This document shows positions 24,733 to 50,007 of a stretch of DNA of 51,822 nucleotides, in pieces. Position numbers and translations under genes: made by a program. The DNA is from Deltaproteobacteria bacterium (GTDB lineage: Bacteria; Myxococcota_A; JAADFL01). The notes under the pieces were generated by a model that was given only the letters and a program-made list of their open reading frames with translations, had not been told where the DNA came from and made no database searches. Numbering within the stretch: the stretch's first letter is position 1; the number at the start of each line of letters is the position of its first letter. The DNA lies in the NCBI GenBank assembly GCA_013152945.1, contig JAADFL010000151.1, positions 1 through 51,822 on the forward strand, given 5' to 3'.

Positions 24733-24809
24733 TTGCAGTTTGAAATTATCGCGATAGAGTTCACTCCGATACCTTACAAATAAAAGTGCTGAACAAAAAA
24801 GGATTCAAG

Positions 24810-25511
24810 ATGAGGGCAAAAAAAACTCTCGTGTCATGGAGCAGCGGCAAGGACAGTGCATGGACACTTCATGTTTTACAGCAGGATCCTGAAATAGATG
24901 TAGTTGGCCTGTTCTGTACCATCAACACCAAGGCTGATCGTGTGGCCATGCACGCCGTGCGGACAAACCTGCTGAATCGGCAAGCAAAGAGCCTTGGTTT
25001 GCCTATCGAACTGATCGGCTTGCCCAATCCATGCACGAACAAGGATTACGAGGAGATAATGGCCGTTTTCGTGGACAAGTCAAAGGCCCGTGGCATCGAG
25101 CAATTCGCGTTCGGCGACCTGTTTCTTGAAGATGTACGTACGTACCGGGAAAAGCACCTCCTTGGCACGGGCATCAAGCCGATCTTTCCTCTTTTTGGAA
25201 AACAAACGCCGGGGCTTGCAAGGGAGATGATAGCAGGTGGACTGGAGGCGGTCATAACCTGCGTAGATCCGAATCAGGCCCCGGAAAACTTGATCGGAAG
25301 GCAATACAACGAGGAATTATTCGCTGAATTACCCGAAAAAGTGGATCCGTGCGGTGAAAACGGCGAATTTCACACCTTTGTTTCCAACGGCCCGATGTTT
25401 GAATTTCCTTTGGAAATCAAGGTCGGCGAGATAGTTCAAAGGGATGGTTTTCTATTCGCCGATATATTACCTGCCCTGGACAAACAAAGCCGGACAAGTC
25501 CGGATACGTAA
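24810..25511 (+). CDS. Dph6-like ATP pyrophosphatase (DUF71 / diphthine-ammonia ligase family)
   Basis: A 233-residue soluble protein of the N-type ATP pyrophosphatase fold. SWSSGKDSAW near the N-terminus is the PP-loop that binds ATP, and the C-terminal CGENGEFHTF followed by NGP is the signature of the Dph6/MJ0570 family. In archaea and eukaryotes Dph6 amidates diphthine on elongation factor 2. Bacteria lack diphthamide, so the substrate here is unknown. ATG at 24810 has AAGGA upstream; an ATG eight codons earlier is possible. The gene stands alone between two lipoprotein genes and converges on the next one. Confidence 0.88.
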   Translation: MRAKKTLVSWSSGKDSAWTLHVLQQDPEIDVVGLFCTINTKADRVAMHAVRTNLLNRQAKSLGLPIELIGLPNPCTNKDYEEIMAVFVDKSKARGIEQFAFGDLFLEDVRTYREKHLLGTGIKPIFPLFGKQTPGLAREMIAGGLEAVITCVDPNQAPENLIGRQYNEELFAELPEKVDPCGENGEFHTFVSNGPMFEFPLEIKVGEIVQRDGFLFADILPALDKQSRTSPDT

Positions 25512-29533: not shown

Positions 29534-30823
29534 TCAGTTTCGGTTGCGAACAGTCACTTTCATTACTGAAGACGGCTCCCTCATGAGTGCAACCATTTTC
29601 CGATCAACCTGTGCCGCGGTCATTTCGGCTTCCACGCCCAGGGTTTTCCTGCAATTGAACCTGCTCCTGCGAAATACAATGGACTTGTTGCTGGAAAATC
29701 TCGGATTCCTTGTTGCCCTGAATACAGCAGTCATGGAATCGACCTGTAAAACCACTTCAATCTCGTCGGACAAGATCGAAAAATCCAAGTCTCCAATCGA
29801 TGCTGAAACACCGAGAACACAGGTCTCCCTGGGGGTAAGAATTTCTTCCGCCTTGAATTCCATGGTTTTTTCATGAGTTGCCCTGATTTTCTCGTGTCCC
29901 CTGCATACAAAGCTGACATGGGCTTTCTGTCTTTTTCCACTCGTTTCAACGCCTTGCTTTTCTTGTTCACCTGCTTCAAGCAAGAGCTTGTAGGCCCGGC
30001 TTTTCGAAAAACCGGATTTAGCCGCAAGGGCCTTGGCAACCCCTGACATAGACATGCCCGATTGTCTCATTTTCTCCAGATCGACACTAAAATCCTTTGG
30101 AATTGCAATTGGATTATCGGCGGCCGAAATACTTTCGGATTTCGTCTCCACCACCACGACACACTCTCCTCTTGGTTCTTCGGTAAGCATGGCTATTACT
30201 TCGGGCAATCTTCCCCGCATGATCTCCTCGTGAGTCTTTGTGAGTTCTCTTGCAATCATTACTTGCACTTCTCCCAACACATGAAAGATATCTTCAAGCA
30301 AGCTTCGAATTCTCCTTGGCGACTCGTACATGACCAAGGGTTTGTTAAGGGATGCGCTTACTTCTATTTCCTGTCTGCGCTTCTTCCTGCTTCTTGGCAG
30401 AAACCCGATGAAAACATAACCCTTTCCGGCCAAACCGGACACAGAGATGGCCGCAACTGCCGCACACGGCCCAGGCACGGGCACGGTCCTGAATCCGGCG
30501 TCTGCAACAGCCTTGACCACCTTACCGCCGGGGTCGGAAATACCCGGAGTCCCGGCATCTGTCATAAGGGCAATGTCCTTGCCCTTTCCAAGGTAATCCA
30601 ATATTTTTGGAATCCTGCGTTCCTGGTTGTACGAATGACAAGACATGACAGGTTTCTTTATTTGGTTGCGTGACATCAGACGCCGTGCCGTCCTTGTGTC
30701 TTCGGCAGCCACAATGTCCACGGACCCAATGACGTCGAGTGCCCTTTTCGAAATGTCTTCATCATTGCCTATAGGCGTTGCAACCACGAACAATCGGCCG
30801 CAAAGGCCTGGCCTTGATCCGGA
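29534..30823 (-). CDS. rsmI: RsmI-type 16S rRNA C1402 2'-O-methyltransferase with C-terminal DUF371 domain
   Basis: A protein of about 429 residues, against about 280 for ordinary RsmI. Residues 1-230 are the tetrapyrrole-methylase-like catalytic part: LFVVATPIGN, AAEDTRTARRL, ALMTDAGTPGISDPG and PVPGPCAA are RsmI signatures for methylating C1402 in helix 44. A helix-turn-helix segment (about 258-285) is the usual RsmI tail. Residues about 303-426 are extra and read like DUF371, best known from archaea: CRGHEKIRATHEKTMEF, LTPRETCVLGVSA and a late NCRKTLGVEA. ATG at 30823 has GGAGG ten bases upstream and lies five bases after the stop of the KamB/NpmA-like gene, so the two are translationally coupled. 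The function of the DUF371 part is unknown. Confidence 0.9.
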   Translation of the reverse strand, partial: SGSRPGLCGRLFVVATPIGNDEDISKRALDVIGSVDIVAAEDTRTARRLMSRNQIKKPVMSCHSYNQERRIPKILDYLGKGKDIALMTDAGTPGISDPGGKVVKAVADAGFRTVPVPGPCAAVAAISVSGLAGKGYVFIGFLPRSRKKRRQEIEVSASLNKPLVMYESPRRIRSLLEDIFHVLGEVQVMIARELTKTHEEIMRGRLPEVIAMLTEEPRGECVVVVETKSESISAADNPIAIPKDFSVDLEKMRQSGMSMSGVAKALAAKSGFSKSRAYKLLLEAGEQEKQGVETSGKRQKAHVSFVCRGHEKIRATHEKTMEFKAEEILTPRETCVLGVSASIGDLDFSILSDEIEVVLQVDSMTAVFRATRNPRFSSNKSIVFRRSRFNCRKTLGVEAEMTAAQVDRKMVALMREPSSVMKVTVRNRN

Positions 30824-30828
30824 CATAT

Positions 30829-31527
30829 CTATGGTTCCTCCGTTTCCTGCTTGATTCCCTGAATATCGAATGTTTCCCTGCGGCTGGCCCTGGATAGTCT
30901 TTTGCCCCATGTCGATACCAACGGCGGATCTCCCGGCGGCAATCTCCTGCAACCGATGGTTCGTATTCCAACAAGATCCAAGGCCGGGACCAGGCGGCTT
31001 TCCAGGTAGGCTTGGTCCAGATTTGGAAGGCCGAGTCTTTTTGCCAGGCCGTCCATCTCGAAAACATGGGTGTTTATCAGTAATCTTATTTCACAGCCCG
31101 GCCTTGCAAGTCTCGAAATATTCGCAAGCGCTTCATGGCTTGCATTTGCAATCGCCCTTAAAAGAGCGGCCCATGGGTACAAGACTGTGATCATGTCAGC
31201 TTGTCCGGACAGGCAGGATGGAGGGTGTTCGAGTTCTCCCCGAACCATGATAAGGTTGTCGACACCTCCCCTGGACATCTTTCTCGATGCCCTGAATGCT
31301 GTTTTTTTCATTACCTCGAAATTTGGATCCATCCCGACACAAAAAGTATCCCGGTGCTCTCTGGCCCATCGCAGGGGAAACTTGCCGTCACCTGTTCCAA
31401 TATCGATCAGCACTCTTTTGTACCGGCTTTTCAATGTTTCGAACTCCAGGCTGGAAAGGCAATGCATCCCTGTTCCGATTCCGGTCACAATATCAAGCCC
31501 GCACCCAATCTTTTCCATGAACCACAT
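30829..31527 (-). CDS. KamB/NpmA-like 16S rRNA (adenine1408-N1)-methyltransferase
   Basis: A 232-residue class I methyltransferase. IDIGTGDGKFP (44-49 core) binds S-adenosylmethionine. MSRGGVDNLIMV, TVLYPWAALL (Pro-Trp 118-119), LGLPNL and STWGKRL (Trp 207) fit the A1408 methyltransferase family in order and spacing. The two Trp residues correspond to those that grip the flipped adenine in NpmA. These enzymes give aminoglycoside resistance in producers and pathogens, and chromosomal homologues of unknown role exist. The start is uncertain: ATG at 31527 and an in-frame ATG at 31518 both have weak ribosome sites. Coupled to rsmI, whose product methylates a nucleotide of the same helix. Activity is predicted, not shown. 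Confidence 0.85.
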   Translation of the reverse strand: MWFMEKIGCGLDIVTGIGTGMHCLSSLEFETLKSRYKRVLIDIGTGDGKFPLRWAREHRDTFCVGMDPNFEVMKKTAFRASRKMSRGGVDNLIMVRGELEHPPSCLSGQADMITVLYPWAALLRAIANASHEALANISRLARPGCEIRLLINTHVFEMDGLAKRLGLPNLDQAYLESRLVPALDLVGIRTIGCRRLPPGDPPLVSTWGKRLSRASRRETFDIQGIKQETEEP

Positions 31528-37318: not shown

Positions 37319-39070
37319 CTATTTTCCACCCTTTTTATCCTTTGGCAAGGGAGCCACAGGCACCAGGGCCGGAATTTCCATTTGACTCGGCTCATTCTCC
37401 AGGATCCTGAACTCAACCCTTCGGTTCGCAGCCCTGCCCCGCCTGGTCCTGTTGCTGGCAATAGGCTTGTCAGGGCCGAATCCGACAGCCTCCATCCTGT
37501 CAGGCTGGACACCCCTCTTGGCCAAGTACTTCATAACTTCTGCAGCACGCCATTTGGAGAGCTTGAGATTCCAGCTTCTTTTTCCACTGTTGTCGGTATG
37601 CCCCTCGATTCGAATCTTCTTGATCTCGGGATGGGCTTTCAACACCAATGCCACCTGGTTTAGTATGGAATGGGATCTCCGCCTGATTTTCGCCCGGTTC
37701 CTGGCAAAATATATTTTCTCTTTTATTTCTATTCGCTCTTTTGTGATTACAACCTTGACCGCTCCCTTGTCAGGACAGCCATCATTATCTCTCACTCCAT
37801 TGATTGTTTCAGGTCTGTTAGGACACTTGTCATCCTTGTCCAATATGCCGTCCCTGTCGTTGTCATTGTCCGGACAGCCGTCTTCATCTTCGAAATTGTC
37901 CTTGTCTTCCGGATCATTCGGACACTTGTCATCCTTGTCCAATATGCCGTCTCTGTCGTTGTCATTGTCCGGACAGCCGTCTTCATCTTCGAAATTGTCC
38001 TTGTCTTCCGGATCATTCGGACACTTATCCTGGTCATCCAGTATCCCGTCCTTGTCACTGTCCATGGGTTTGACTTTCGGCTTGGGAACCGGCTTCCTTT
38101 CGACTACGATTACTTTTGTCTTTGTTTTTCCCTTTGTCAGCGGAGGGGGCAAGGTTTTGACCTGTTTTTCCTCCGGGGGAGTCCAAGACATGCCGAAGAT
38201 AACCCTGTATTTCGGGCAGCCATATCCTGGAAGCAATCCAAAACCCATGCCGGCACGAAAGGTTATACCCGGACCCGGCCTGTACCTGGCGCCGAGCACG
38301 CCTTCCAGTGTATTTTCCACTTCATGTGAGCCGAAGGGTGCGTGAGCAGTGGTCGAGCCGAAAATTTCGCCTAACAGATCAAAGTCTTTCAAGACTGAAA
38401 ACACTGCTGCTCCGGAATAGAACCACTCATCGCCTATGCGCAGGCCTAGAAGCTTGCTGGTCGGCCTTGTCCTGTATCCCAGGTTTGCTGCAAGCAGCGC
38501 AGGGCCCAACTTTGAATCCAAAACCAATCTCGGCTCATACATCACTCCCTGGTCCGAGCCGCCTTGGAAAGAATTTCTTGGTACAGCGGTAGGAAATTCC
38601 AAAGCATTTTCAAATCCGAAACCAACAGGATTCTTCTTCCTGTCTACAATCTTCCATTTCACCAAGAGCCTTGTGTCTGAAAGGCCCCCGATGGACAAGT
38701 CGTCCCCCGGCTCGATTCCGTTTCCCCCTGTATAAAGGGCTACAGGAAGGGTGATGGTCACCTGCATAAGGTCGAACAGACCGATACCAGCGTAAAGATC
38801 TGCTCCCAGTGTAGCGCTGACGATTTCCCGTTTCGCCGACCTGCCTGCCACCAGTATTAATGGATTCCTTGCAAAATCCAAAGAAAATCCAAAAATAGGC
38901 TCAAAAGACCTTAAAACAGAACTTCCAACCACTGAAAAAGAGCCAAATTCATCAGTAGACGGTTCAAACAGCCTGATATTAATATCTTTCCCGCCCGCTC
39001 GGACAGGCATCGGCGCCAAGACCATCAAAAATAAGGCAATCATCAACCGGAAACATTTCAGCATGTTCAT
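37319..39070 (-). CDS. OmpA-family outer-membrane protein with TSP3 linker
   Basis: A 583-residue protein with signal peptide (ending at VRAG). The N-terminal 300 residues look like a beta-barrel with alternating strands and aromatic residues. A Lys/Pro-rich stretch follows, then three to four TSP3 units (about 338-430) with repeated [28 protein letters not shown] blocks. The OmpA C-terminal domain has [28 protein letters not shown] and a closing NRRVEFRIL, which binds peptidoglycan. Its ATG overlaps the stop of the giant gene as ATGA; a second ATG at 39064 has better ribosome-site spacing. It is the likely cell-wall anchor of the operon. Confidence 0.93.
37838..38027 (-). repeat. Duplicated TSP3 block in the OmpA-like gene
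   Basis: A segment of about 96 bases (from roughly 37920) is repeated almost exactly just downstream (37838-37935). It encodes two nearly identical 32-residue TSP3 units. Very few base differences indicate recent duplication. Confidence 0.7.
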
Positions 39071-42000
39071 TCTCCCTTATTTCGCCTTCTTATTCCAATG
39101 AGCAACATAGACAACCAAATCCAGGGTATGGATCCTCCTGTGCCACCACCCGTTGTGCCACACATGCATCCGCCTCCACGAATTCCCTTTCCAGCCAGGT
39201 AGTCTTCCGGCTTCTCTATTACAGAGCAGCGTTTTTGTCCGAGCGGTCCGTCTGTGCATATTTCCGGATCCACACACCTTTGGATCACCATCCATGAACC
39301 CTTTCCACAATATTCGACAGCAGTAAGACTGGAATTACACCTGTAAGCACCTTCTTTACACTTATTTGTGTCTGTATCTGTATCCGTATCCGTATCCGTA
39401 TCTGTATCTGCATCTGTATCCGTATCTGTATCCGTATCTGTATCCGCATCCGTATCTGTGTCGGTGTCGGTGTCCGTGTCTATATCTGTGTCGGTGTCGG
39501 TATCCGTGTCGGTGTCCGTGTCGGTGTCCGTATCTGTGTCGGTGTCCGTGTCGGTGTCCGTATCTGTGTCGGTGTCCGTGTCGGTGTCCGTATCAGCATC
39601 ACCGGTTCCACAACCAGGCAGGCCTTCATCAAATTGTCCATCACAGTCGTTGTCAAGGCCGTCACAAATCTCATTCGAAGGGCCGATCTCGCCATCGCAT
39701 GGCCCCCATTCACCAAACAGGCATATTTGTATGCCGGTCTTGCATTGACCCACATCGCTGCCGCAAAGACGACTCAAGTTTTCATCTACTTCACCATCAC
39801 AGTCATTGTCCAAACCGTCGCACACCTCGCTCGATGGTTGAGTCGAACCTTCGCAAGCGCCCCAATAACCGCCTGTGCATGACTGAGTTCCCTTGACGCA
39901 CTCTCCGACATCAGTTCCACAAGCTTGCGTTTGGCCATCATTACACTGGCAATCCTCGTCATAAAGCCCGTCACAGTCGTTATCCAGGCCGTCACATACC
40001 TCGACCATCGGACCTACCGAATCCTTACACGCGCCCCAGGAACCTGCAATACATTCCTGGAGCCCTGCATGGCATTCTCCGACATCACTGCCGCACGGTC
40101 TGAACAGATCCTCGTCCACGAGCCCGTCGCAATCATTGTCCAGCCCGTCACACACCTCTTCAGAGGGACCCTTGCCTCCCCAGCACGCACCCCAGGAACC
40201 ATTTTCACATTTCCTCACACCGGAACTGCATTCACCGACATCACTGCCGCACGACATGTAAAGGCCCTCGTCCGTCTCCTGGTCACAATCATTGTCGAGT
40301 CCGTCACAAATTTCGTTGGAAGGCTCAACTGCACCATTACATGCCCCCCATGTTCCGGACACACACTCCTGTACACCCGGCCTGCATGAGCCCACGTCTG
40401 TTCCACAAAGTTGGTTTGTGCCGTCGATGCACGAGCAGCCTTCATCCACATCTCCATCACAGTCATCATCAAGACCGTTACAAGCCTCTTCACTTGCAGG
40501 TTCGACCTGGCCGATACAGGCTCCCCATTTTCCTCCAACACATTCGGAAATACCGGACCTGCATATTCCCCTGTCCGTTCCACAAACCCTGCGCAGGTTT
40601 TCATCCACCAGCCCGTCACAGTCATTGTCCTTTCCATCGCAAATTTCGTCTTTCGGGCCTACTTCCCCCTCGCATGCTCCCCAAGCCCCATTTACACAAG
40701 ACCTGGTTCCCCGAACGCATTCACCGATACTCGAGCCACATGGCATGGTCAAATCTTCATCAACCAGCCCGTCACAGTCATTGTCGAGTCCATCACAAAC
40801 CTCTGGTTGCGGGGGTATCGCTCCATTGCAGGCACCCCACGTGCCGTCTATACACTCCTGGATGCCCGGAACACACTCGCCGACATCACTGCCGCATGCC
40901 TGGGTGGAACCTGCCTGACAAGAACAATCCTCGTCGATCCGGCCGTCACAATCATTGTCGAGTCCATCACATATTTCCGTTTCCGGACCTACACCACCAT
41001 CACAGTTTCCGAAACTACCGGACCCGCAGATTTGAATCCCCCGCCTGCATATGCCCACATCACTACCACAGAATCGCCGGAGATCCTCGTCGGTTTCTCC
41101 ATCACAGTCATTGTCCACCCCGTCACACGTTTCACTGCTTGGATCTTGTCCTCCGACACACGGTCCCCACCGGCCTCCGCTGCATGTCTGCATTCCCTGT
41201 CGGCATTCTCCTGTATCCATTCCACAGGAGCGATTCAACTCCTCGTCGATCCGGCCGTCACAATCATTGTCAAGGCCGTCACAAAGCTCCACGGAAGGCC
41301 CTATTTCTCCCATGCATGGACCCCATGAACCTGCTTCACAAGTACTTATGCCGCTCTTGCATTCACCAATATCCAAACCACAGCTCTCCTGCAGGTTCTC
41401 GTCCACCTGGCCGTCACAGTCATCATCAATGTTGTTGCATACTTCAGGAGATGGCCTTATTCCGCCCACGCAAGGCCCCCATTGGCCGCCGCTGCATGTT
41501 TGAACTCCCTGCTCACAGGCCCCCACATTGCTGCCGCATGCCTGGGTATCCCCGTCAGTGCACGAACATCCTTCATCGTAATCGCCGTCGCAGTCATTGT
41601 CCTTTCCATCACATTTCTCTTCACTCGGTTCCAGGGAACCGTCACATGTCCCCCATGAACCATTGATACAAACTTGGATCCCTGACCTGCACTCGCCTTG
41701 GTCGGTTCCACATATCCTAGACAGGTTTTCATCGATTTGGCCGTCGCAGTCATTGTCCAAGCCATCACAGATTTCAGGCTCCGGGTTTATCATGCCCGTA
41801 CATTCTCCCCAGAGACCATTGGCGCACACCTGTATGCCGGAAGCGCATTCTCCTTCATCCGTCCCACACGGTTTGGTTAGATCCTCATCGGTCTCACCAT
41901 CACAATCATTGTCTATTCCGTCACACACCTCGCTCACAGGCCCGATGCCGCCCTCACAAGATCCCCAGGCGCCGCCTACACATGTCTGAACGCCGTTTTG

Positions 42001-45000
42001 ACATGCTCCCACATCAGAGCCACAAAGCTGTGTCTGTCCGTCCATGCAATCACATCCCTCGTCGACCAGACCGTCGCAGTCATCATCCAGCCCATTGCAG
42101 CTCTCGATTCTTGGTCTTACCTCGCCTACACACACACTCCACGACCCGCTGTAACATGTCTTGAGTCCACTCTGGCAAAGTCCCACATCAGAGCCGCACA
42201 CAGCGGTTATGTCTTCATCCACCAGGCCGTCGCAATCATTGTCCAAGCCATCGCATATTTCGGTCGCAGGATTAACATTACCTGTACAATCACCCCATGC
42301 GCCGTCCGCACAGACCCTGAAGCCCCGCTTGCACTCTCCGACATCACTGCCGCACGGCATCACCAGGTCTTCGTCCACAAGTCCGTCGCAGTCATTGTCC
42401 AAGCCGTCACATACTTCGGTCGAAGGTGGATTCTCTCCGAGGCAAGGTCCCCAAAAACCGGCGTCACAGGTTTGGGTGCCCCTCTTACATTCTCCGACAT
42501 CACTGCCGCATGCTTGGGTTTCTCCTATGTTACAGGGGCAATCCTCGTCAGTGGCGCCGTCACAATCATTGTCCAAGCCGTCGCATGTCTCTGTTGCAGG
42601 CGCAATTTCACCGATGCAATCACCCCAAGTGCCGCCGGAACATACCTGGGTCCCCTTTTGACATTCACCTACGTCGCTTCCGCAGAACCTTGACAGGTCC
42701 TCGTCTGCAGAACCGTCACAATCATTGTCCAGACCGTCGCATACTTCCGTACTCGGTGCGACTCCACCGGAACAGGGTCCCCATTCACCAGCCGTGCAAA
42801 CCTGAGTTCCGGCCACACAGGCGCCCACATCACTGCCGCAGGACCTGGACAGATCCTGATCGATCTCCCCGTCACAGTCATTGTCCAAGCCATCACAAAT
42901 CTCGGCTGTTGGCACTACTTCGCCTACGCACTCGCCCCAATTGCCTTGGGTGCAGGTCTGAATGCCTTTTATGCATTCACCCACGTCGCTTCCGCATACT
43001 CTGCTGATGTTATCGTCCACCAATCCGTCACAGTCGTTATCAAGACCGTCACACGTCTCGGGTTGCGGATTCACCCCGCCGCTGCACTCACCCCATTTTC
43101 CATCCGTGCAGAGCTGGGTGCCTTTCCTGCATTCACCCACATCACTGCCACAAACCTGCACAGAACCATCCACGCAGTCACAACCTTCGTCCACTTCCCC
43201 GTCACAGTCGTTGTCAAGGGTGTCACAAAGTTCGTCTACCGGATCGATAGAGCCCTCGCAATCCCCCCACTTGCCGGCATTGCATGTTTGTATGCCTGAC
43301 CTGCACGTGCCCACGTCACTGCCGCATTGTCTTGAAAGGTCCTCGTCGATGAAACCATCGCAATCATTGTCCAGGCCGTCACAGATCTCCTCGCTCGGAT
43401 TGTTGCCTCCCTGGCAAGAACCCCAGGTTCCGTTGGTACAGACCTGCGTGCCTTGTTCACAAGCACCTACGTCAGAGCCGCAAGGCCTGATAAGGCCATC
43501 ATCGATCGCGCCGTCACAGTCATTGTCAAGACCATCGCATATTTCCACCTGGGGCCCGATTTCCCCTTCACAAGGGCCCCATTCGCCGCCCACGCAGGTC
43601 TGGAGTCCTTTTTTACACTGCCCCAAATCCGATCCGCAAACCTGGGTCCATCCATCGATGCAGGAACAGCCCTCATCGGTCTCTCCATCGCAGTCGTTGT
43701 CAAGACCGTCACAAACCTCGGGCCTTGGCTGTACCTCGCCCTGGCAAGCGCCCCACGTACCACCGACACATGTCTGCTGCCCGCTCACACATTGGCCCAC
43801 ATCACTGCCGCAGGACCGGTTCAAGTTTTCGTCGATGTTTCCATCACAATCATTGTCGAGACCGTCACAAATTTCAGGCTTCGGCCCGATATCTCCCTGA
43901 CACGGCCCCCATTCACCTCCCACACAAGTCCTCTGGCCCAAAGCACATTCTCCGGTATCGGTTCCACAAGGCGCGAACAATCCCTCGTCCGCAGTGCCGT
44001 CACAATCATTGTCCAAGCCGTCACAAATTTCGGGTTGTGGGCCAATATCACCCACACAAGGTCCCCAGGCTCCGCCCACGCAAGTCTGTTTCCCTTGCGT
44101 GCAAGTACCTTCGGCAGACCCGCAGAGTTGCACCTGTCCATCTATGCAAGAACATCCTTCATCCACGACTCCGTCACAGTTGTTGTCCAATCCGTCACAG
44201 ACTTCCGGTTGCGGACCTATTGCGCCGACGCACGAGCCCCACTCGCCGCCCGAACACGTCTGTATTCCCCGCCTGCATTCTCCGATGTCGCTTCCGCAGA
44301 ACCTTGAAAGGTCTTCGTCGATTTGCCCATCACAGTCGTTGTCGAGGCCATCGCAAATTTCAGATGCAGGAGGGGTTTCCCCTATACACGCGCCCCATTG
44401 GCCGTCCGTGCAAGTCTGTAATCCCTTTGCACATTCACCGACATCACTTCCACACTCCATGCTGAGACTTTCATCCGTTTCCCCGTCGCAGTCATTGTCA
44501 AGGCCGTCACACACCTCTGGTTTGGGGTCTATCGCTCCCAGGCAATCCCCCCAGTTGCCGGCATTGCAACGCTGTATCCCGAACCTGCAGGCACCGATAT
44601 CGGAAGTCCCGCATTGCTTCACCAGGTTTTCATCCGTGGCGCCGTCGCAGTCGTTGTCAAGGCCGTCACAGGTCTCATCCTCTGGCCATACGGCTCCCTC
44701 GCATGCTCCCCACAGCCCGTCCGTACAAGTCTGCGTTCCCTTGACACATGCTCCGACATCCGTGCCGCAATCCTGTTGTTGCCCATTTACGCAGGAGCAC
44801 CCCTCGTCCGTTTCACCGTCACAGTCGTTGTCGACACCGTCACACACTTCTTCCACAGGAGGAATCTCTCCTGCACAGGATCCCCATTTGCCGCTCGTGC
44901 ACGTCTGAATCCCGGACCTGCACGCGCCCACGTCGGATCCGCACTGTCTCGAGAGATTCTCATCCACTGCGCCGTCGCAGTCGTTATCGAGGTTGTCGCA

Positions 45001-48000
45001 AATTTCTTCCTGTGGTCCCACCCCGCCCTCGCATGCGCTCCATTGGCCGGCAGTGCATGTTTGAACACCCTTCTGGCACGTGCCGATATCAGAGCCGCAC
45101 TGTCTCGAGAGATTCTCATCCACTGCGCCGTCGCAGTCGTTATCGAGGTTGTCGCAGGCCTCGGGCTGGGGATTCACTCCGCCCAGGCATTCTCCCCAGG
45201 CTCCATCGACACATGTCTGTGTTCCCTTCGTACATGTGCCCACGTCACTGCCACATTGCTGTATTTGTCCGTCGATGCATGAACATCCTTCGTCAGTCAC
45301 TCCGTTGCAGTTGTTGTCCAATCCGTCACACTTTTCATCCGACGGAGGAATCTCGCCCACACAGTCGCCCCAGAACCCGGCGTTACACGTCTGTATTCCG
45401 GACTTGCACTCACCGACATCACTTCCGCAGGCCCTGTTCAAGTTCTCATCGACGGCACCGTCACAATCATTATCAAGGTTGTCACATTCCTCGGGCTGTG
45501 GACTCACGCCGCCTATACATTCCTCGCCCCAGAATCCGCCCACACAAACCTGGACGCCATATTGGCACTGGCCCACGTCACTTCCGCAGGGCCTTGTTTG
45601 GCCTTCGACACACTCGTTGCCCTGTCCCGGATCATCGAAGGGATCCACCCAATTGGGAATACCATCCTTGTCCAGATCTCCTGTTCCTTCAAGTGCGTCG
45701 GTCTTTCCGTCATTGTCGGAGTCATAGTCCACGCGGTTGGGCGCTCCATCGAAATCCGCATCCGGATCAGGCTGACCGTCACCATTGGCATCCACCGCTT
45801 CTTCGGTCGCGTCCGGAATCCCATCGCCGTCCGAATCAAGATCCCTGAAATCGTACGTTCCGTCGCTGTCCGACTCCTTGGGCTTTGTTACGATGGATAG
45901 GTCCCCGGCTTCGTCAAGGTCGGATATACCGTCGCCGTCCGAATCATCGTCCAGGGCATCTATCGTTCCATCTCCATCAGTATCGCACGGATTGTTGACA
46001 TAGTCCGGGTCGCATCCTTTGACCTCGTCATCGTCCCTGATCGCATCGTTATCAGAGTCCGGGTTGTTGGGATCGGTTCCTATTATGCCTTCTTCCTGGT
46101 TAGTAAGGCCGTCGTTGTCCGGATCACCGAGGGGCCCGGAGTCATCAGCATCATCCAGGTAGTTGGGCAGGCCGTCACCATCGTCATCCTTTGTTCCACT
46201 GCCGTCGTCTTCCAGGATGTCCGGCATTCCGTCATTATCCGAATCGCCGTCTATCATGTTGGGTCTTCCATCTCCATCCGCATCAGGAAAAAGAGATGCA
46301 GGTTGACCAGGGAGGCCGTCCCACTCGATATCATCGGGAATACGGTCGTCATCACTGTCCAAGTCCCTGAAGTCGGGGATATCGTCCAGGTCGGATGACG
46401 CCGGGGGAGTGTCCAGCAGGGCATCCCCGGCCTCGGTCGAGTCCGGGACACCATCATTGTCTGAATCGGTATCCTCGGCATCAATGGTGCCATCGCCGTC
46501 AGTGTCGCAGGGGTGGTCGACAAAGTCCGGATCACAGCCCTGAACCTCGTCATCATCCCTGATTGTGTCGCCGTCTGTATCCGGGTTGTTCGGATCCGTG
46601 CCCAATATAGCTTCTTGTCCGTTGGTCAATCCATCCGAGTCCAGGTCTCCGTCAGGACCGTCCTGATCGTTCGAGTCTATCCAGTTCGGTATACCGTCAC
46701 CATCGATGTCTCCTGTTCCCTCGGTTGCGTCGCCCTTGCCGTCGCCATCCGAATCGGTATCGAGAAAATCCGGTACACCATCGAAGTCGTGGGCAGGCAG
46801 ATTTGACGGATCGCTGATTATCGGGTCGCCCGGGTTTGTACAAGCGCCCGATTTTCCGGCCTCGATCCAATCCTCGATGGAATCACCGTCTGCATCTATG
46901 TCCCTGAAGTCGGGGGTGCCGTTGAAATCTGAATCCCTTGGCGGCGAGAGCAGGCTGTTATCACCCGCCTCGACAGAGTCGGCTATACAGTCGTTGTCGG
47001 AATCCAAGTCCAGTGCATCCGGAACACCGTCCGAGTCTGTATCGCACGGCGGGTTGGGTCCGCATTCCGATCCATTCACCTCCTGGTCGTCACGAATACC
47101 GTCTCCATCCGAATCCGGGTTCGTCTTGTCAGTGCCTATCGAATCCTCCAGTGAGTTGTTAAGTCCGTCACCATCCAAATCGCCCAACGGCCCGTCCTCG
47201 TCGTTCGGATCCAGGTAGTTGTAAATCCCGTCGCCGTCGTGATCATCGAGTTCCCCTGCCGAGTCGCCCACATAGTTGCCGGAATCCGGTCCATCGGTTC
47301 CCGCCTCGTCCCTGTCGAGTTTACCGTCGCCGTCCGAGTCGGCGTCCCGCAAATCAGGCTGAGTATCGCCATCCGTGTTTACCAGGCTGTTCGGGTCGGT
47401 AATCCTTGGAGTGCTTGCGTTGCACTCGCTGAGCCCGGCCTCGACCCAGTCAGGAATCGAATCCTTGTCTGAATCGTATTCCCTGTAGTCTTTCACTCCA
47501 TCAAAGTCTGTATCCCCCCCCTCTATGGAATCAGCGATACAATCGTTGTCGGAGTCGGTGTCGAGCGCATCTATGGTTCCGTCCGAGTCAGTATCGCAAG
47601 GAGGATTGGGGCCACAACCCTGGCCGACCACTTCTTCACCGTCCGAAATACCGTCGCCATCCGAGTCTGGTTTCGTCTTGTCCGTTCCTATTGAGTCTTC
47701 GAACTGGTTCGTGAGTCCATCTTTATCCAGGTCTCCTGTGGGACCGTCATCATCATTCGAATCACGCCAATTAGGCACTCCGTCCGAATCCTTGTCTCCA
47801 GTGCCTTCGAAAACATCGGATTGCTGGTCCGTGTCCGAATCTCCGTCAATATAGTCGGGCCAGGTATCTCCTCCCGGAAGTCCACCGTCGGTGTTCACGA
47901 GATCGGCCGGGTTGTGTAATACATCGGCCGGGCCGCTGCACACGGCATTGCCTGTGGGTTTCGCTTCCACCAGGTCGGGTATGCCGTCGCCGTCCGTGTC

Positions 48001-50007
48001 AGTGTCCCTGAAATGAGGCTCGCCGTCCTGGTCGATATCGGACGGGACCCTGCCAAAGCTGTCGTTAATGGCCTCTACGTAGTCAGCAATACAATCTCCG
48101 TCCGAGTCCTCGTCCCTGGTATCGGGCGTTCCGTCACCATCAGTGTCACAAGGAGGAACAGGACCACATCCTGCTGACGCATCGACAGCCTCGAAATCAT
48201 CCCTTATTCCGTCGCCGTCCGTGTCCTGGTTGTTCGGATCCGTCTCATTCGCATCCAGTATATGATTCCAGTTCAAATCTTCCTGGCCGTTGAGCAGCCC
48301 GTCTCCATCCAGGTCACCGAGCGGCCCGTCGTTGTCGTTCGGATCGATCCAATTGGGAATACCGTCGCCGTCTATATCTCCCTGGCCCTCGTCAGCATCC
48401 AGAGTTCCGTCATTGTCACTGTCCGTGTCCTGGAAGTCGGGTATACCATCCATGTCCGTATCAATGGGTGGAGTATCCGGGTCGCCATCTCCTGCTTCTG
48501 TGGAATCATCTATACCGTCGTCGTCGCTGTCCAGGTCCCGGTAATCGGGAATGGTGTCATTGTCCGTATCAACGGCAGGTGTCATGGGATCATCGTCTCC
48601 AGCCTCATCCAAGTCTTTTATGCCGTCATTGTCCGAATCAGTGTCCAACCAATCAGGGATGGAATCATTGTCCGTGTCCGGGGGGGATACGTCCCTGCCA
48701 CCCTCGTCATAATCGAGGATATTGTCCTGGTCCCTGTCCTCGAATGGCAATGGAGCGAGTTCTATCTGGTAGTTGTCGTAAGCATTGCCTCCCCCGGTCT
48801 GAACCAAGACAGGTTTATCGGCTACCACCTCGTACAAGGTTCTTCGCTCGAGCTGTGGGCCTGTCCCCTCTGTTGTCAGGTAATCGTCAGCATTCATTAC
48901 ATATGTGCCATTGCTGGTACCGTCGGTAAGGTCCGTCACCTGGACCGTGGTATTGTCGTATTGTGCAAAGACATGTGCGTCCAGCGTAAGGCTGCGAAAA
49001 TATATGTGCCGTCCAAGCTGTCCTGCGCCAATATTGCCGGCGGACTGGGTTACGTCGTCCCCCAAGTAGTCGATAGTAGTTCCACCCTGGGTATCACCGG
49101 CCCACACGCCTGCCTTGGCCGTGGCCGTTATCTTGTATACCCTGGATCCGGGACTGATGCCCAGGTTGTTTCGAAAGTCATAGGTGCCTGCATTTACGCT
49201 CCTGTTTTGAAACACATAGGTGCTGTCTGTTACATTGTACAAATCATAATTCAGGTCTTCGTACGCATACAGAACATAGTCGCCTCCATCAGTCGTCAGC
49301 CTCTTGACCCCGAACAAAAATTCGGTTCCTATCTCGGTTCCGTTCTTTGCAGGAACCACATCGAACCCGTCGACTGCATTGGCCTGTACCATAATGTTGC
49401 CGGTAGAGTTTATTCGCGTCACGTCGTGGAATCCTATGTACGCGGTCACGACCTCGTAACTGTCCGCATCCAGGTGAAAGGTGTACTTTGGATTGCCCCA
49501 TTCATCCGTGATATTTATATCCGAAGGCTCGTACGCAAGAACCAGGTAATTTGTCTCATCTCTTGAGAGATTCCCCACTGGCGTATAGAAAAAGAAGTCC
49601 GTGCCAACCCTTGTCCATGGATCCGTGGTTTCTATGTAATAGGTTCCACTGTTCTCATGATCGAAGAAGGCTGATCCACCGCCGAGAAAAACAGATATTG
49701 GATTGTCGTACGACCTGACCTTGAAATGGCACACCTGGAGTGGAACTATTTTCAATGTTCCGGGCCATAGTGTAAAAGGCCCATAGTGAGTACCGTTGTC
49801 CATGTCCCAGACCTCGGCTACGGTCGCATCGTGCAACCCGTAAAGGTACAGTCTCCCGCCGTAACCGCCGCCCAATGGGTTGTAACCATAGTACAGCGTT
49901 CCCCTTGCCGAAGCCATCCCCGGAATCAAAGTGGCTATCGCCAGGATGATTGACAAGAAAAGCAGGCCTGTTTTACCAATTCTTGAATAGTTACATCTAC
50001 CCGTCAT
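39067..50007 (-). CDS. Giant TSP3/MopE-repeat surface protein with MYXO-CTERM-like tail
   Basis: A 3646-residue exported protein. The signal peptide ends near ASA (residue 34). Residues about 35-420 are a beta-rich domain, perhaps akin to IgGFc-binding N-terminal domains. Residues about 422-1460 carry TSP3-type repeats arranged in five long superrepeats. Residues about 1470-3467 hold 37 MopE-type repeats of about 50 residues (CGSDVGxCxxG...[14 protein letters not shown]), each likely binding metal through the acidic loop. An Asp-Thr linker (about 3470-3547) and a Cys-rich domain lead to GGGCMCG, a helix and RRRNKGE, a MYXO-CTERM-like sorting end. GGAGAG eight bases before the ATG supports the start. 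The gene lies 31 bases after the repeat-rich membrane protein and overlaps the OmpA gene, so the three form an operon. Probably a long surface fibre or adhesin. Confidence 0.9.
39366..39600 (-). repeat. Long Asp-Thr hexanucleotide tract with exact 30-base units
   Basis: The coding strand repeats GAY-ACN for nearly 80 residues. A 30-base unit at 39511-39540 is repeated exactly at 39541-39570 and again in part (39571-39594), so the tract has expanded recently. Changes are in multiples of six bases and keep the frame. Confidence 0.85.
39608..45600 (-). repeat. Array of 37 MopE-type repeats in ten-unit higher-order order
   Basis: Each unit begins CG(S/T)DxG and ends CDxxDNDCDGxxDE. Units 2, 5, 9, 12, 15, 19, 22, 25, 29, 32 and 35 end in an extra GCxCxDGxxQ-type linker; the intervals are 3,4,3,3,4,3,3,4,3,3, so the pattern repeats every ten units. 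Units 22 and 32 also share the rare [10 protein letters not shown] variant, and units 21 and 31 both begin MPCGS. This implies duplication of ten-unit blocks. Confidence 0.85.
45630..48745 (-). repeat. TSP3 superrepeats of about 165 residues
   Basis: Five long blocks each start with a [14 protein letters not shown] unit, then a GPxGDxDxDGLxN unit, an [17 protein letters not shown] unit, a CDTDxDGxxDxxDxDSDND unit and a closing EAGD segment. A sixth copy stops after its first unit at the border with the MopE array. Asp loops of this form bind calcium. Confidence 0.8.

Follow-up and report, generated by a model that had tools for sequence, protein, structure and literature searches.

The locus raises the question of what a DUF371 domain does at the end of a bacterial RsmI. 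DUF371 occurs in many archaeal phyla and is represented by two crystal structures, and no paper on its function was found in the open-access literature, only its place in the ECOD structural classification. A preliminary description of the window (the whole analyzed stretch of DNA, 51,822 nucleotides) proposed that RsmI is fused here to DUF371, that no described fusion of this kind is known, and that DUF371 works on the ribosome or rRNA. The fusion was borne out as one open reading frame with matches to both TIGR00096 and PF04027, but it is not confined to this genome and recurs in others.

The fusion gene and its upstream neighbor

The fusion is encoded on the reverse strand at positions 29534 to 30826, with the start codon ATG at 30826-30824 and the stop codon at 29534, and comprises 430 amino acids. 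The open reading frame, its frame and its motifs agree with the preliminary description, except that the coding sequence includes this ATG and begins at 30826 instead of 30823. Based on profile searches, a single open frame without stops spans an RsmI part (29978..30793, reverse strand), a linker of about 23 codons without an in-frame start codon (29909..29977, reverse strand) and a DUF371 domain (PF04027; 29549..29908, reverse strand), which harbors RGHEKIRATHEKTMEF ... TCVLG ... FRRS ... KTLG in this order. Counted without the initiator methionine, the two domains cover residues 11-282 and 306-425. No in-frame start codon occurs from residue 282 to residue 322, which already lies inside DUF371, and thus DUF371 is not a separate gene. 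The ATG is preceded by GGAGGAA, and the stretch GGAGGAACCATAGATATG holds both the Shine-Dalgarno sequence of the fusion gene and the stop codon of the gene upstream. A sequencing frameshift joining two genes is unlikely in view of the single frame, the complete RsmI tail, the linker and the missing internal start, and is also countered by the presence of the same two domains in one open reading frame in four other assemblies.

The RsmI part belongs to the 16S rRNA C1402 2'-O-methyltransferases with a tetrapyrrole-methylase fold. It matches NCBIfam TIGR00096 over residues 11-282 (E 8.6e-63, model positions 2-272 of 275) and passes the equivalog cut-off with 212.3 bits against 167.9, and Pfam TP_methylase covers residues 11-209 (E 4.2e-27). 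The motifs TPIGN, AEDTR, DAGTPGISDPG, PGPCA, FLPR and RELTK..EE are intact, and those of the AdoMet pocket and the conserved catalytic domain are invariant in an alignment with four fused RsmIs. The protein resembles the solved RsmI proteins (5hw4, 9pzg) in its full set of motifs, its helical tail at the C terminus and its match to TIGR00096 along its length, but differs from them in the additional C-terminal DUF371 and in the position of its gene 2 nt behind an NpmA-family gene. As judged from its family membership, C1402 would be its methylation site. The fusion is the sole RsmI found in the 94%-complete genome of the window, in which PF04027 likewise occurs once.

PF04027 was matched by residues 306-425 of 429 (E 7e-23; profile positions 2-130 of 133) with 81-84 bits against a gathering cut-off of 25, and by the tail alone with E 1e-23. 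An AF2 model of the domain, built from an alignment of 68 window and locus sequences, reached a pLDDT of 96.7 and a pTM of 0.90 and superposes on the solved DUF371 proteins 7y7n (M. ruminantium, Z 21.3) and 3cbn (MTH639, Z 21.2). Both the profile match and the predicted fold confirm the earlier assignment of the tail to DUF371. The modeled domain is predicted to be a duplicated 8-stranded barrel fold, a small closed beta-barrel. Its next fold relative is the PTS glucitol IIA component 2f9h (Z 7.4 over 108 residues), a related barrel that shares only 8% identity; this link was proposed earlier by the ECOD classification (PMC4256011). Foldseek and VIA returned no fold relative beyond the DUF371 family and 2f9h. 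Across the 68 sequences, which come from two domains of life, G, H, H, C and R do not vary, and N, A, T, E, S and T hardly do. The window copy retains the complete domain and the invariant residues, but carries substitutions (N to K, T to K and G to E) at three sites with 94-100% conservation among the archaeal rows. Whereas the archaeal members examined are free-standing, it is fused to RsmI and has a shorter loop, and the G-x-P motif of the second repeat is replaced by RNP, which corresponds to x-NP in the other bacterial copies. The net charge of bacterial DUF371 domains varies from -4 to +6. Due to this lack of a consistent positive charge, simple RNA binding is not evident. The model of the full-length fusion was poor (pLDDT 62, 5 sequences), so that no interface between the domains can be argued from it.

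The gene directly upstream (30829..31527, reverse strand), whose stop codon lies 2 nt before the ATG of the fusion, belongs to the NpmA/KamB/Kmr family of 16S rRNA A1408 N1-methyltransferases according to its profile and its closest solved relative. Pfam PF24675 was matched with E 2e-54 and 184.5 bits against a cut-off of 60, and the closest solved chain is Kmr of Sorangium (4rwz, E 1.4e-39). It has been shown that two conserved tryptophans of A1408 methyltransferases hold the flipped A1408 (PMC4705659). Both are kept in the upstream open reading frame as W119 and W207, and the YPW and STW motifs align with those of Kmr and the other cassettes. With 74-119 bits against 305-470, the product remains below the curated NCBIfam cut-offs for KamB, NpmA, NpmB and WarA, and indeed below every equivalog or exception cut-off. 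On these profile scores, it is a predicted member of the same family as KamB, NpmA, NpmB and WarA, but none of these named enzymes. In contrast to the known members, its gene is located in an operon with the DUF371–RsmI gene and not on a resistance element. Family membership points to A1408 as its probable methylation site.

Further features were observed elsewhere in the window. Positions 24804-25511 (forward strand) harbor a diphthamide synthase family gene (PF01902, 6.8e-29) in this bacterial genome; the family is best known from archaea and eukaryotes. A predicted secreted protein of 3646 amino acids (39067-50007, reverse strand) contains dozens of repeats with long DTDTDT runs and ends in a sorting-like tail, and DTDTDT runs of a similar kind occur in several other lipoprotein-like open reading frames. 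A tRNA scan of the window found none.

DUF371 and its gene neighborhoods in other genomes

DUF371 was surveyed in a GTDB-based genome collection with one genome per species by means of two short peptide patterns, which yielded 228 places, and the best 80 of these were examined. Among these 80, free-standing archaeal genes form the majority, the bacterial DUF371s are all fused, and the order with RsmI first is restricted to the window protein. DUF371 precedes RsmI in MAGs of an Acidimicrobiaceae member (L017), two alphaproteobacteria (L042 and L043) and a further bacterium (L060), and in each of these genomes no RsmI other than the fusion exceeds the cut-off. The DUF371 of seven Streptomyces continues into a stretch of about 250 residues colinear with RsmI (shortened by the contig end in L023). 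The relationship of this part to RsmI is indicated by hhalign (97.7% over 199 columns) and by own-profile matches of 1e-4 to 1e-7, but all RsmI catalytic motifs have been lost; an ordinary RsmI is encoded elsewhere in all three Streptomyces genomes tested. Among the same 80 places, the nearest relative of the window domain (40%) is a free-standing DUF371 from a Thermoplasmatota MAG (L003). A profile search found no RsmI in the genome of this MAG, for which bin contamination is possible. DUF371 was rare in background samples (1/377 and 1/256 genomes), absent from the phages searched and present on one haloarchaeal megaplasmid among the plasmids searched.

The genomic context is more informative than the fusion itself. 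An NpmA-family gene above the cut-off was present in all eight tested genomes with a window-type DUF371, compared to 6/256 Actinomycetota genomes, one of the six being a DUF371 carrier, and to 1/188 genomes in the phylum of the window, the one being its own. For seven bacterial genomes versus 5/255, Fisher's test gave p = 5e-11, a value that ignores kinship, though the carriers belong to at least five separate lineages. Wherever both genes are located on one contig, they are neighbors. They are directly adjacent in the window, L003, L017 (divergently oriented), L042 and L043, and in both alphaproteobacteria the NpmA-family and DUF371–RsmI genes overlap by ATGA. In all seven Streptomyces loci, one gene for a SpoU-type RNA methyltransferase separates the Kam-family gene from the DUF371–pseudo-RsmI gene. 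In L060, adjacency is not visible because the two genes sit on separate short contigs of a fragmented MAG. The association thus persists without RsmI catalytic motifs in Streptomyces and without any RsmI in L003. As both keep the NpmA-family neighbor, this gene is a more constant partner of DUF371 than RsmI.

Five other Actinomycetota NpmA-family loci (L140-L144) have neither DUF371 nor RsmI nearby. Apart from L003, the NpmA family was found in 0/26 archaeal DUF371 genomes by the same search that was positive in the eight DUF371 carriers and in the Actinomycetota sample. Archaeal DUF371 genes repeatedly adjoin those for the RNA methyltransferases Trm5/TYW2 (17 loci), PCMT, a protein-isoaspartate methyltransferase (22), and FEN1 (16), and these neighbors occur in several phyla (for example L013 6397-7458, L071 958-1641, L056 16-1041). 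Two further methyltransferase genes were observed in the cassettes: the SpoU-type gene of the seven Streptomyces loci, encoded on the opposite strand (L029 5393-5887), as a third RNA methyltransferase, and a class I methyltransferase gene directly after DUF371 in the Thermoplasmatota cassette (L003 6356-7132).

A possible role of DUF371 at helix 44

The assembled 30S subunit is the substrate of RsmI as well as of Kam-family enzymes, which act on it at helix 44 (PMC5053481, PMC4705659). Resistance methyltransferases of this helix disturb housekeeping ones, namely ArmA with RsmI at C1402 and NpmA with RsmF at C1407 (PMC12406665), which provides a reason for coordinating the two modifications. 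The 16S rRNA of the genome itself keeps both targets, C1402 and A1408. On these grounds, and in view of the recurrent linkage and of the RNA methyltransferase genes beside archaeal DUF371, the gene pair may represent a two-gene methylation cassette for the decoding center in which DUF371 has a coordinating role, the most likely reading, to which we give about an even chance, the part of DUF371 being suggested by genome context. On the assembled 30S subunit, the upstream Kam-family product would methylate helix 44 at A1408 (N1), and the RsmI of the fusion would 2'-O-methylate this helix at C1402, at a distance of six nucleotides. DUF371 would be a non-methyltransferase module that engages either helix 44 and the decoding region of the 30S subunit or, on this subunit, the A1408 enzyme, and that determines where or when RsmI acts with respect to A1408 methylation; for example, it might admit RsmI to a subunit that already has m1A1408 or will receive it, or synchronize RsmI with such a subunit. 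The RsmI-like body kept in Streptomyces could serve as a docking platform. The ancestral role of DUF371 cannot have been to serve these enzymes, as the NpmA family is absent from the 26 archaeal DUF371 genomes and RsmI from L003; in archaea, DUF371 might have an earlier function at that site. The earlier proposal of a putative function on the ribosome or rRNA is thereby partly supported; it gains from the opposite-order fusions and the constant A1408-family gene, but it had missed this second partner. The own 16S fragment (L136/L138) was also found to carry A1409-U1491 and G1410-C1490 pairs in helix 44, beside A1408, compared to C-G and A-U pairs in E. coli.

The invariant polar residues of DUF371 (G-H, H, T, E, C, R) appear to resemble an active site as much as a binding surface. 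As the main rival reading, DUF371 could itself have enzymatic activity and introduce, remove or process another modification in the same rRNA region, with the fusion to RsmI serving to share the substrate. The invariant and near-invariant residues, with the motif RGH..(I/V)RATH..T.E, are consistent with this, as is the relationship of the fold to PTS IIA with its catalytic-type histidine, but a cofactor motif is absent and the window copy departs from the archaeal rows at the three highly conserved positions. The best candidate product, C* (N330) at position 1404, is also present in Thermotoga maritima (PMC2584109), in which PF04027 had no match, and this disfavors DUF371 as the enzyme for C*. 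We regard an enzymatic DUF371 as rather unlikely.

An improbable alternative is a regulatory or structural add-on that acts off the rRNA, either as a sensor of a ligand such as an aminoglycoside or SAH or as an oligomerization module tuning both enzymes. Such a function would suit a small closed beta-barrel that lacks a consistent basic charge and is joined to RsmI at either end, and the classical modification in aminoglycoside resistance is methylation of A1408. However, archaea carry DUF371 alone without NpmA-family enzymes, and L003 carries it without RsmI.

In the DUF371 tree, which is poorly resolved, one group (95/84) unites the bacterial copies with L003 and three archaeal rows. By path length the window copy is close to L003, and the N-terminal fusions form a loose group with Streptomyces (94/67). 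The fused RsmIs do not cluster, as about 1% of bootstrap trees unite them, but the hypothesis that these RsmI parts have a single origin was not rejected (p-AU 0.234). Only the opposite domain order speaks for two independent fusion events. The common DUF371 group and the single origin compatible with the RsmI data would fit an archaeal DUF371 gene that moved with the NpmA-family gene as a cassette and was fused to RsmI without functional meaning, but such hitch-hiking is very improbable given the opposite domain order, the differing gene orders and orientations (co-directional, divergent, SpoU-interrupted) and the persistence of DUF371 and its conserved residues along long branches, in contrast to the decay of RsmI in Streptomyces.

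Implications for DUF371 and the Kam family

Beyond the coordinated methylation of C1402 and A1408, it is conceivable, and put forward here only tentatively, that DUF371 is an unrecognized decoding-center factor, a reader of helix 44 or an enzyme acting on it, that is widespread in archaea and that some bacteria adopted for a coupled C1402/A1408 system through fusion to RsmI and pairing with a Kam-family methyltransferase. The fusions at either end of RsmI together with the constant A1408-family neighbor point to helix 44 of 16S rRNA as a specific substrate region, and the question of DUF371 function can be tested in culturable Streptomyces and Haloferax. Kmr does not bind SAM on its own (PMC4705659), and the cassette offers a possible reason why such relatives of the upstream enzyme do not bind SAM alone. 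Outside antibiotic producers, Kam-family genes on the chromosome may be part of a housekeeping system and not only of resistance.
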